This document shows positions 18,031 to 21,809 of a DNA stretch of 64,000 nucleotides, one piece after another (position 1 is the first letter of the stretch; every line of letters starts with the position of its first letter). Below the pieces are notes generated by a model. The model was not told the DNA's origin and made no database searches. It saw nothing but the letters and a program-made list of their open reading frames with translations. The translations under genes and the position numbers were made by a program. Source of the stretch: an uncultured Mycoplasmatota bacterium (lineage in GTDB: Bacteria > Bacillota_I > Bacilli_A > Izemoplasmatales > Izemoplasmataceae); NCBI GenBank assembly GCA_913062645.1, contig CAJXVW010000001.1, forward strand, positions 1 to 64,000. The letters run 5' to 3'.

Positions 18031-18058
18031 AAAAAAAGGATGCGCACAGCATCCTTTT
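18031..18058. terminator. Bidirectional terminator
   Basis: The stem AAGGATGC/GCATCCTT (18036-18043, 18049-18056) has an A8 run left and T-run right, between convergent genes. Confidence 0.85.
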
Positions 18059-18371
18059 ATTTTTGATACATGTCAATCAGGCGTTCGATCTTGGCGTAGT
18101 TGATGTAGCGGGATTCCCGCAAGAGTTCTTTTCCGTTGGAGAAAATCAACACCGTCGGCACGCTGAAGATCAGATGATCGCCGCGGAACTTGTCGATGTC
18201 GTCGATGTAGATGTTGTAGATGTCGATCTGGTCCAGGTTCTTGACGTTGTGCTTGAGCATATTCAGCATCGCCTGACAGGCAGTACATGTGTGGGTCTTG
18301 GCCAAGATCATCACAAAGTCCTGATCCAAAACCGCTTGGATATCCTTGTACGTTGTTATGGTATGTTCCAT
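18057..18371 (-). CDS. Thioredoxin-fold protein
   Basis: A 104-residue thioredoxin-family protein with redox motif CTAC (C29, C32) and the cis-proline loop SVPT (P72). The classical WCGPC is replaced by TCTAC, which points to a specialised reductase or a YtpP-like thioredoxin. No signal peptide, so it is cytosolic. GGAGGCGATTTCC precedes the ATG. Single-gene unit sharing the bidirectional hairpin. Confidence 0.87.
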   Translation of the reverse strand: MEHTITTYKDIQAVLDQDFVMILAKTHTCTACQAMLNMLKHNVKNLDQIDIYNIYIDDIDKFRGDHLIFSVPTVLIFSNGKELLRESRYINYAKIERLIDMYQK

Positions 18372-18546: not shown

Positions 18547-18565
18547 AAGTTTGCGAGGTGATACC

Positions 18566-18934
18566 ATGAAAAGCCTGAATCACTTGAAAGGCATCAGCAA
18601 CAACACCAAACTGCGGCTGGTGAGTCTGCTTCTGGAGAACGAACTGTGTGTTTGTGAACTGGAGGAGATCACCCACATCCGCCAAGCCAACATATCCAAG
18701 AATCTGATCAGCTTGAAAGACAGCGGCATCGTCGATGTCCGGCGCGACAAGCAACGAGGGTTCTATTTTCTCACGGAATCCTTTTTGTCCAACGTCCACT
18801 TGATGAGTCATCTCAGGGAACTGAAACTGAAGGAGCCACAACTGGAAAAGGATTTTCAAGAATTCCTGAAACACGAAGAAGTCAAAGACGAAAACATCTA
18901 CGTATGCAGTGCATACCGAAATGAGGCAAGTTGA
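18566..18934 (+). CDS. ArsR/SmtB-family metal-responsive repressor
   Basis: A 122-residue winged-helix repressor. The ELCVCEL motif at 26-32 (C28, C30) is the classic ArsR/CadC metal box in the recognition helix region; another cysteine lies near the C terminus (YVCSAYRN). Metal binding should release it from the palindrome covering its own promoter. The start is ATG 18566 after GCGAGGTGA; TTG 18551 lies before that site. It is directly followed, 3 bases later, by copA, so it most likely controls copper efflux, although ArsR types usually sense As, Cd or Zn and copper sensing would be unusual. Confidence 0.92.
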   Translation: MKSLNHLKGISNNTKLRLVSLLLENELCVCELEEITHIRQANISKNLISLKDSGIVDVRRDKQRGFYFLTESFLSNVHLMSHLRELKLKEPQLEKDFQEFLKHEEVKDENIYVCSAYRNEAS

Positions 18935-18937
18935 ACA

Positions 18938-21325
18938 ATGGTTAAGAAAATCATGAAAGTCAATGGCATGACCTGTGCCATGTGTGCGAAAACCATCACC
19001 AACACCTTTGATTACTATGAAGGCATCAGCGCCAACGTCAACGTCGGCGCCGGCAAAGTCATCTTCAACTATGACGAAGACAAGTATACGCTGGTCGACA
19101 TCGCCAACATCGTCGAACAGGCAGGATACGAACCGGTGCTTGAGGAGTCGCTGGACGATAACAAGAAAGAACGCGTCCGGATGCGCCGGGAAATCTACAT
19201 CGCATCGGCCTTCAGCGTTCCTTTGCTGTGGGCGATGTTCAGTCACATCGCGTTCTTCAGCTTTGTCTGGGTGCCGGCCATTCTGACCAACGGGTTCTTC
19301 CAGTTGGCGATCGCCGGCGTGGTCCAGTTCTACGTCGGACGACGCTTTTATGTCGCGGCGTGGAAGAGCATCAAGAAGAGAGTGCTCGGGATGGACATCT
19401 TGGTCGTGATGGGAACGACGGCGGCCTATGGCTACAGCCTGTATCTTCTATATGAACAGCAAGTAAACCCCGTCATGCATCCCGTGTACTATTTCGAAAT
19501 CAGCGCCCTTATCATCACGATGGTGCTGATCGGCAACTACATCGAACACATCGCCAAAGAACGTACCACCGACGCCCTTGTCGAACTGATGAACCTCGGC
19601 GCCAAAGAGGCTCGTGTCCTGCGCGACGGTAAGGAAGTCATGGTGGACATTGCGGAGGTATTTGAAGGAGACCAGCTCATCGTACTGGCAAATGAGAAAA
19701 TCCCGGTTGACGGCAAAGTCGTCAAAGGCACCAGTTATGTCGATGAATCGATGATGACCGGAGAAAGTTCACCGGTTCCAAAAACGACCGAATCCAAAGT
19801 CATCGGCGCAACCATCAACCTCCGTGAGCGACTTGTCATCGAAGCGACCAAGATCGGCAGTGACACGATGCTTGCTCAAATCATTCAGCACGTCGAAGAA
19901 GCGAGCGCCGACAAACCGCCGATCCAACGGACTGCCGACAAGATCGCGTCATGGTTCGTGCCGGCCGTCGTATCGATTGCCATTCTCAATCTGATCGTTC
20001 AGTTCGGGTTCTTAGGCGTCCCCTTCGGAACCGCCTTCGAACGCACGATAGCTATTCTCGTCATCAGTTGTCCCTGCGCGCTTGGCCTCGCTACACCGAC
20101 CAGCATTCTCGTCGGCAACGGCAAAGCCGCGCAGAACCACATCCTGTACAAGGGCGGCGAATTCTTCGAACTCGCCAACAAGATCGAAGCGATTGCGTTT
20201 GACAAGACCGGCACGCTCACCATCGGGAAACCGATCGTGACCGACTACGTTGGCAACGAAGATGTCAAGGACGTCCTATACTCCCTCGAAAAGGACAGCA
20301 ATCACCCGATCAGCGGCGCGGTCATCGATTATATGAACGATCACGACATTAAGGCGCTTGAGGTATCCGGCTTCGAAACCATCGAAGGCAAGGGACTCAA
20401 GGGTGTCGTCAAGGACCAGACGGTTCACGTCGGAAGCGTCAAACTGTTGAATGACTTGAACCTCGACAATCCATTCCAAGATGAATACGATCGCCTGCTT
20501 GCAGGCGCCAAGACCGTCAACTTCGTCATCGTTGACAACAACGTCGAAGCAATGTATGCGGTCCGCGACGAGATCAAGGATACGTCCAAACTCGTCATAT
20601 CGGAAATGAAACAGCGCGGACTTACGCCTTACATGATCACCGGCGACAACAAGGTCGTCGCCAATCAGATCGCCAAAGAACTCGGCATCGAGCATGTCTA
20701 CAGCGAAGTTCTGCCTCATGAGAAGGCGAAAATCGTCGAAGAGATCCAGGCCAGCGGTAAAGTCGTCGCCTTCGTCGGCGACGGCATCAACGACGCCCCG
20801 GCCTTGAAACTAGCCGATGTCGGCATCGCCATGGGTCACGGCACCGACGTTGCGATTGACTCCAGCGACGTCACCCTGATGAGTTACGATCTGGGACTGG
20901 TGATCAAGGCGATCGACATGTCGAAAGCAACGCTGCGCAACATCTATCAGAACTTCGGATGGGCGTTCAGTTACAATCTGATCGCGATTCCGCTCGCCGC
21001 CACCGGCCGTCTGTCGATGGTCGTCGCTGCCGCGGCGATGGCATTCAGCAGTATCACCGTGGTGCTTAACGCACTACGTCTCAAAGCATACAAACTACCC
21101 GAATTCCAAGTCACCAAAGAAGGAGGAGACATCATGAAACTCACCGTCACCAACATGACCTGCAATCACTGCAAGATGACGATTGAGAAAACCTTGCAGC
21201 AAAACGGCTTCACCAACGTCGACATCGATCTCGACAACAAAGTGGTGGAGTTCGACCTCAACGGAAACACCGAGGATCTGGCTAAGAAAGTCATTGAAGA
21301 AAAAGGCTACGAAGTCAGTAGCTAA
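18938..21325 (+). CDS. copA: Copper-exporting P1B-type ATPase with C-terminal CopZ-like domain
   Basis: A 795-residue Cu+ pump. The N-terminal heavy-metal domain has GMTCAMC (C13, C16); the membrane metal site is CPC at 378-380; D422 in DKTGT is phosphorylated; TM7 has YN and TM8 MAFSS, the signature of Cu+ (P1B-1) pumps. Unusually, a second metal domain forms the C terminus, MTCNHC (C742, C745), from Met733 on. The linker to it is encoded by a perfect ribosome site (AAGGAGG, 21120-21126) seven bases before the in-frame ATG 21134, as if copA and copZ became joined by loss of a stop codon. Confidence 0.95.
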   Translation: MVKKIMKVNGMTCAMCAKTITNTFDYYEGISANVNVGAGKVIFNYDEDKYTLVDIANIVEQAGYEPVLEESLDDNKKERVRMRREIYIASAFSVPLLWAMFSHIAFFSFVWVPAILTNGFFQLAIAGVVQFYVGRRFYVAAWKSIKKRVLGMDILVVMGTTAAYGYSLYLLYEQQVNPVMHPVYYFEISALIITMVLIGNYIEHIAKERTTDALVELMNLGAKEARVLRDGKEVMVDIAEVFEGDQLIVLANEKIPVDGKVVKGTSYVDESMMTGESSPVPKTTESKVIGATINLRERLVIEATKIGSDTMLAQIIQHVEEASADKPPIQRTADKIASWFVPAVVSIAILNLIVQFGFLGVPFGTAFERTIAILVISCPCALGLATPTSILVGNGKAAQNHILYKGGEFFELANKIEAIAFDKTGTLTIGKPIVTDYVGNEDVKDVLYSLEKDSNHPISGAVIDYMNDHDIKALEVSGFETIEGKGLKGVVKDQTVHVGSVKLLNDLNLDNPFQDEYDRLLAGAKTVNFVIVDNNVEAMYAVRDEIKDTSKLVISEMKQRGLTPYMITGDNKVVANQIAKELGIEHVYSEVLPHEKAKIVEEIQASGKVVAFVGDGINDAPALKLADVGIAMGHGTDVAIDSSDVTLMSYDLGLVIKAIDMSKATLRNIYQNFGWAFSYNLIAIPLAATGRLSMVVAAAAMAFSSITVVLNALRLKAYKLPEFQVTKEGGDIMKLTVTNMTCNHCKMTIEKTLQQNGFTNVDIDLDNKVVEFDLNGNTEDLAKKVIEEKGYEVSS
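21120..21136 (+). promoter_or_regulatory. Internal ribosome-binding site and start codon inside copA
   Basis: AAGGAGG (21120-21126), 7 bases, then ATG (21134-21136) in the copA frame. It could start a free 63-residue CopZ-like copper chaperone (MKLTVTNMTCNHC...) from the same message. Confidence 0.6.
21134..21325 (+). CDS. Possible internally started CopZ-like copper chaperone
   Basis: Nested in copA and in the same frame, this would be a 63-residue heavy-metal-associated domain with the metal loop MTCNHC (C10, C13 of the short product). Size, ferredoxin-like alpha/beta pattern and its own strong ribosome site match free CopZ proteins of Bacillota, which deliver Cu+ to CopA. Whether the short form is really made cannot be told from sequence; the site may be a relic of an ancestral separate gene. 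Confidence 0.45.
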   Translation: MKLTVTNMTCNHCKMTIEKTLQQNGFTNVDIDLDNKVVEFDLNGNTEDLAKKVIEEKGYEVSS

Positions 21326-21350
21326 GCGGAGAATCTCTCCGCTTTTTCTT
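21325..21350 (+). terminator. Terminator of the arsR-copA operon
   Basis: The stem AGCGGAGA/TCTCCGCT (21325-21332, 21336-21343) starts at the last base of the stop codon and is followed by TTTTCTTTTTT. Confidence 0.85.
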
Positions 21351-21353
21351 TTT

Positions 21354-21382
21354 TTGAAATCGATTTTGAAATATTGTATAAT
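21354..21382 (+). promoter_or_regulatory. Promoter of the candidate small RNA
   Basis: TTGAAA (21354-21359), 17 bases, TATAAT (21377-21382). The spacing and hexamers are near consensus; the -35 box begins in the T-run of the copA terminator. Confidence 0.75.
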
Positions 21383-21644: not shown

Positions 21645-21729
21645 GGGAGGGTAGCGAAGTGGTTAAACGCGGCAGACTGTAAATCTGTTCCCTCAGGGTT
21701 CGATGGTTCAAATCCGTCCCCTCCCACCA
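21645..21729 (+). tRNA. tRNA-Tyr (anticodon GTA)
   Basis: An 85-nt tRNA with acceptor stem GGGAGGG/CCCTCCC, anticodon GTA at 21679-21681, a long variable arm as expected for bacterial tRNA-Tyr, T-loop GGTTCAAATCC and an encoded CCA end. Confidence 0.96.
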
Positions 21730-21734
21730 CTTTT

Positions 21735-21809
21735 AGGGGTGTGGTGTCAATGGTAGCACAGCGGTCTCCAAAACCGTTAGTACGGGTTCGAATCCTGTCA
21801 CCCCTGCCA
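21735..21809 (+). tRNA. tRNA-Trp (anticodon CCA)
   Basis: A 75-nt tRNA with acceptor stem AGGGGTG/CACCCCT, discriminator G, encoded CCA and anticodon CCA at 21768-21770. It reads only UGG, consistent with UGA being used as a stop codon in this genome. Confidence 0.96.

Follow-up and report, generated by a model that had tools for sequence, protein, structure and literature searches.

Comparative evidence that a fused copA-copZ gene may encode both a copper pump and a free CopZ-like chaperone

In the window analyzed here (the whole stretch of DNA, 64,000 nucleotides in length), the reading frame of a copper pump gene, copA, runs without interruption into a CopZ-like domain, and the junction carries what resembles a complete ribosome-binding site (RBS) followed by an in-frame ATG. 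This raises the question whether one message could give rise to two products, a CopA-CopZ fusion and a free CopZ, as proposed in an earlier note on this DNA, and how such an arrangement is distributed among related bacteria.

The fused gene and its internal start site

The copA frame extends from the ATG at 18938 to the stop codon at 21323–21325. Its product combines a DKTGT (residue 422) and CPC (residue 378) core with a TIGR01511 score above the cut-off, as characteristic for P1B-type copper ATPases (CopA), and is hence predicted to be a Cu(I) pump. Pfam HMA matches the protein twice, at the N-terminus (CAMC at residue 13) and, beyond the last TM-like segment (residues 692–710), at 21140–21313 (43.3 bits in the PF00403 search of the genome, cut-off 24.8). 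The latter match contains CNHC at residues 742–745 and thereby bears out the extra C-terminal heavy-metal domain (C742, C745) described in the earlier note, whose perfect AAGGAGG, seven bases and in-frame ATG at the junction also proved correct (21120–21126, 21127–21133 and 21134). The features of the locus are:

18551–18934, plus strand: ArsR/SmtB-family regulator gene, 3 nt upstream of copA and its probable operon partner (open reading frame; Pfam HTH_5; NCBIfam HTH_metalloreg above cut-off)
18938–21325, plus strand: fused copA-copZ open reading frame, 795 aa, predicted Cu(I)-type P-type ATPase with N- and C-terminal HMA domains (open reading frame; Pfam; TIGR01511, 562 bits against a cut-off of 397)
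18953–19132, plus strand: N-terminal HMA domain with CAMC (PF00403, 49.9 bits, cut-off 24.8)
21086–21133, plus strand: variable 16-residue linker AYKLPEFQVTKEGGDI from the last conserved ATPase residues to the C-terminal HMA domain (alignment of fused C-termini, reading of the junction)
21120–21126, plus strand: internal Shine-Dalgarno (SD) sequence AAGGAGG, -11.7 kcal/mol with the anti-SD (sequence, anti-SD energy)
21134–21325, plus strand: internal open reading frame for a putative 63-residue CopZ-like HMA protein beginning with Met733 (sequence, profiles, fold prediction)
21161–21172, plus strand: codons of the CNHC metal-binding motif, residues 742–745 (sequence)
21324–21344, plus strand: intrinsic terminator directly after the fused stop, predicted to end the transcript (9-pair stem and T run; fold z = -3.1)

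Since the regulator gene lies this close upstream and the terminator directly follows the stop codon, the transcription unit is probably arsR-copA(copZ). A small thioredoxin-like gene (Pfam Thioredoxin; 18057–18371, minus strand) adjoins the copper operon on one side. Directly 3' of the terminator, a promoter-like TTGAAA-17-TATAAT (21354–21382, plus strand) is followed by a brief stretch containing several strings similar to AGGAGG and then by tRNA-Tyr (21645–21729) and tRNA-Trp (21735–21809). The stretch between terminator and tRNAs is perhaps a small leader region; apart from the two tRNAs, Rfam gave no match near copA.

The 63-residue product would contain the entire HMA domain. With its match to the HMA profile, its CxxC motif and a predicted ferredoxin-like fold, it has the hallmarks of the HMA superfamily and of Atx1-like proteins. 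The AlphaFold2 model built with 19 family members reached a pLDDT of 95.2, and its top Foldseek matches were Atx1 of Synechocystis, a Bacillus copper-binding protein and CopZ (TM 0.84–0.89), pointing to a complete CopZ/Atx1 fold. Because its scores stay below the curated NCBIfam cut-offs for CopZ (50.8 against 91, 45 against 85 and 41.7 against 62), we refer to it as “CopZ-like” and not as a member of one of these named CopZ families. A search for HMA domains in the whole genome (1.99 Mb, 99.7% complete) gave three matches, two in the fused CopA and one in another ATPase, and no stand-alone HMA protein elsewhere.

According to the proposed mechanism, ribosomes starting at 18938 would synthesize the pump with both of its HMA domains, N- and C-terminal, and ribosomes entering at the internal RBS (21120–21126, ATG 21134) would release the free 63-residue CopZ, which would carry Cu(I) to the pump. 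As the internal SD outscores the copA SD in 18 of the 19 family members scored, the soluble chaperone would be expected to outnumber the pump, both being made from one message. The tethered HMA copy may be a tolerated by-product or act as local copper donor. Internal initiation, a stable product acting as copper chaperone and the product ratio are what we infer from sequence.

In the window, the SD energy is -11.7 kcal/mol at the internal site against -5.6 kcal/mol at the start of copA itself, with the usual anti-SD applying because the 3' end of the 16S rRNA in this genome is canonical. The window's open reading frames of at least 150 aa contain 280 internal in-frame ATGs, of which five reach -8 kcal/mol and only the one at 21134 reaches -11 kcal/mol. 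Shuffling of the linker codons attained the energy of the site in 0.19% of trials, and synonymous recoding, applied to the eight codons upstream of the ATG, in 31% (not significant), since Lys-Glu-Gly-Gly nearly forces GGAGG. No special mRNA structure was found at the internal RBS, where the fold is no better than that of shuffles (z 0.4). Taken alone, the site of the window is suggestive and not decisive; with recoding reproducing it this often, the decisive evidence has to come from comparison.

The junction in related and distant genomes

In 49 genomes of the same GTDB family, 24 distinct fused copies were read. The HMA domain of 21 of them begins with an ATG or GTG preceded by an SD of -6.5 to -12.6, despite varying length and sequence of the linker; the three copies without the site all come from genus g9. 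The codons that form the site differ, e.g., AAA GAA GGA GGA in the window, ATC AAG GAG GAA in L021 and ATA AAG GAG GGA in L022. The same RBS is retained in unfused relatives (L020, L025, L026, L027 and several g18 copies from a sister family), where copA and copZ meet in an ATGA overlap (L020) or are separated by a TGA just after GGAGG (L025, L026) or a TAG just before it (L027).

On a tree of full-length CopA sequences from the window's order and some named records, built without the C-terminal domain, the unfused lineages (L020, L025/L026, L027, g18) are scattered among the fused ones. The label “unfused” requires five changes on this tree, all forced by starred branches with the outgroup included, where changes are counted and not their direction and the two outgroup rows are long branches. 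From this scatter, fusion and separation appear to have switched several times, the start site usually persisting (g9 excepted). A recent loss of the stop codon in this genome can be rejected, as fused copies occur throughout the family. Of the history sketched in the earlier note, i.e., a lost stop codon that fused two genes while the start of the second was retained, the retained start agrees with the wider comparison (213 of 261 fusions, see below), and the stop codon may have been either lost or gained. The fusion is neither private to this genome nor recent. Unfused relatives with the same RBS exist, as it had expected of the ancestor, but they lie scattered among fused ones.

The unfused g18 CopA, from another family, branches within the CopA clade of the window's family, a placement suggestive of gene transfer or an uneven rate. 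In L011 (G025:C21), a separate copZ-like frame (locus positions 837–1019) lies just upstream of a fused copA with a weaker internal site (-8.7).

For a wider sample, a profile of the fused C-termini (alignment A1) was run on three sets of genomes: the window's class (395 genomes), the class to which a Tissierellia record, G435, belongs (341) and that of a Spirochaetales record, G430 (248). From the first two sets and named records 198 distinct fusions were read, and from the third 63 more. These 261 fusions come mainly from Bacilli, Clostridia and the G430 class, the profile was made from fusions, and mostly best-scoring matches were read: 30 and 60 loci of the G435 class (Clostridia), best-scoring first, and 67 of 76 loci of the G430 class, in each case among the matches listed. 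Duplicates of the same genes (L039–L042, L119–L133, L233, L331–L334) were left out of the counts, as was L227, a cut gene with an incomplete profile match whose junction does carry SD and ATG. Stops between the domains or a failed profile span removed L135–L137, L228 and unfused relatives from the first set, 12 of 90 loci from the Clostridia set and L341, L352 and L357 of 70 from the G430 class.

An ATG, GTG or TTG 4–15 residues before the CxxC methionine was taken as start codon. By this criterion, the HMA domain begins with a start codon in 247 of 261 fusions; the SD before it reaches -6 kcal/mol in 213 and -8 kcal/mol in 188, counts that represent related sequences and not independent events. 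Here, GTG (8 of 158) and TTG (1 of 158), both usual start codons, replace ATG. After clustering at 70% identity 102 of 133 fusions, and at 60% 54 of 70, still reach -6, so near-copies are not the source of the signal.

The first set (121 fusions, Bacilli and seven from other groups) comprises 112 with a start codon, of which 87 reach -8; synonymous recoding gave on average 30.4 of 112 (maximum of 300 trials 40) and codon shuffling 4.5 (maximum 12). For Clostridia (78 fusions, 76 with a start codon), 51 at -8 compare with 15.3 (maximum 24) and 3.0 (maximum 8), and for the G430 class (63 new fusions, 60 with a start codon), again 51 with 16.8 (maximum 23) and 3.8 (maximum 10). In each of the three sets, the observed number thus lies at about 3 times recoding and about 10–20 times shuffling, and was matched by none of the 300 trials.

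The position of the signal was controlled as well. With the start codon chosen by position alone, 134 of 182 sites reach -8 kcal/mol; of the 1454 in-frame ATGs that precede this codon in the fused frames, 16 do so. Across all anchored fusions, the mean anti-SD energy remains close to zero up to about 14 nt before the start, then drops to -8.3 and rises again, with the dip confined to 4–9 nt before the start. Internal N-terminal HMA domains, which need no start of their own and were drawn largely from other taxa, feature a start codon in 14 of 56 cases and an SD of -6 or stronger in none of 56. Finally, GGAG occurs in two codon phases, phase 2 (47 of 97) and phase 0 (39 of 97) in the first set and phase 2 (41 of 62) and phase 0 (12 of 62) in the Clostridia set; the same nucleotides hence encode different residues, which argues that it is the nucleotides that are selected.

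The junction therefore has the make-up of a gene within a gene, i.e., a conserved in-frame start codon with an RBS inside a longer reading frame. The proposal of the earlier note that one message gives both a CopA-CopZ fusion and a free CopZ finds strong support in this comparison (213 of 261 at -6), and we regard it as likely that the gene of the window has two products, pump and free CopZ.

Fusions without the site and alternative readings

In 14 of the 261 fusions, the searched stretch holds no start codon, and in 34 more a start codon is present with an SD weaker than -6. Relatives with the C-terminal domain that lack a ribosome site, which the earlier note had named as speaking against its reading, accordingly exist as a minority of about 18% (48 of 261). 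SD and start codon tend to vanish together, as only two (L188 and L297) of 16 unanchored fusions have a nearby 9-mer of -6 or stronger.

We considered whether loss of the site is offset by a free CopZ. In genus g9, each of the three genomes whose fusion lacks the site has a short HMA frame (69–106 aa). The idea was dropped, as G091 and G168 have site-less fusions and no other obvious free HMA gene, and short HMA frames also occur in many genomes with the site. The former two cases imply that a free CopZ is not always needed. In L324 (G163:C37), a site-less fusion is directly followed by a separate copZ, its ATG a single base downstream of the copA stop.

Tandem C-terminal HMA domains, two or three in number, occur in five genomes of a single family (G254, G360, G101, G190, G243), and no start site of -6 or stronger was found before the later copies. 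The respective loci (L319–L323) encode CopA proteins of 911–1007 aa without an internal start site and have another gene closely downstream, the start of which resembles CsoR, as we presume.

As an alternative to internal initiation, the RBS could be a relic of separate genes or a by-product of linkers rich in Lys, Glu and Gly, with the fused pump as sole product. The site-less fusions indeed indicate that the fused domain can work alone, and SD-like strings arise from Lys-Glu-Glu and Glu-Gly-Gly codons alone, as reflected by the 30 of 112 obtained by recoding. However, the excess over recoding and shuffling in all three sets, the maintained spacing and the joint loss of SD and start codon are at odds with this view, and a relic would be expected to decay over the distances between these classes; we therefore consider it improbable. 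A separate short transcript arising from an internal promoter or from processing could also deliver free CopZ from the same RBS, as the E. coli case was reported with differential transcript formation in addition to frameshifting. Within the reading frame, however, there is one weak promoter-like match (20463–20491, 9 of 12), and the number of matches of this kind is close to chance (5 found, 2.6 expected), which makes this route very unlikely, compatible as it is with the main explanation. Least probable is an elongation slow-down that aids insertion or folding: the SD-like string does follow shortly after the last TM-like segment, but its distance from this helix varies with the linker, and the start codon, fixed spacing and coincidence with the domain border are all seen and none is needed for pausing.

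Start codon, spacing, domain border, either codon phase and joint loss are, in our reading, as selection for internal initiation would predict, and as neither a pause site nor chance linkers would. Extending this to the copper pumps with a C-terminal HMA domain of Bacilli, Clostridia and spirochaetes, it is likely that dual-product genes are the rule, with the copZ start site as the conserved unit and the intervening stop codon as a dispensable element gained and lost repeatedly. The lack of copZ reported for gut Bacillota and other genomes would then be explained, at least partly, by annotation that lists the fused pump only.

Implications and comparison with known systems

Regarding this absence, PMC4938975 calls it noteworthy that CopZ is missing from the CsoR regulon of gut Firmicutes and reports that, of ten abundant Clostridiales genera, a single one had a CopZ homolog; the matter can now be re-examined. 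If the proposal is true, the chaperone is encoded invisibly inside the pump gene in many of the bacteria described as lacking it, and two ribosome sites on the same message determine how much pump is made relative to chaperone. The gene would also be an unusually broad example of selected internal initiation, and one that is easy to test.

In its domain layout, the fused protein is like CopA of Archaeoglobus, a copper ATPase with HMA domains at both ends; we know of no internal start in ATPases of this type. The gene order is that of separate copA-copZ operons of Bacillota, such as that on the Staphylococcus epidermidis plasmid SAP110A (L329), where copZ has the RBS GAAAGGAGGTGA and a TTG start just after copA. 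There, however, copA stops 33 nt before copZ, whereas the spacer is translated as a linker in the window.

CopA(Z) of E. coli represents the N-terminal HMA domain of CopA. Meydan reportedly described in 2017 that pump and small HMA chaperone come from this one gene, and Drees is said to have attributed this in the same year to differential transcript formation and programmed frameshifting. The likeness to E. coli drawn in the earlier note holds at the level of function, in that pump and small HMA chaperone would in both cases derive from a single copper-pump gene, but the mechanism differs: the chaperone is made by frameshifting in E. coli (PMC10187127), whereas the C-terminal domain considered here continues the copA frame without a break and has an RBS and an ATG of its own. 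The candidate gene would hence provide a third route to making pump and chaperone together, after separate genes and the E. coli frameshift.

Searches of an open-access full-text library, which lacks most subscription papers, gave no account of copA and copZ fused in frame around an internal start. Internal in-frame initiation as such is already known, e.g., from cases in E. coli (PMC11005335) and from cas8b of Haloferax volcanii, where Cas11b derives from an internal start (PMC11899642). As in Cas11 from cas8, the start in copA would free the C-terminal part of a larger protein; the proteins are unrelated, Cas11 being a subunit of a defence complex and the product here a predicted metal chaperone.
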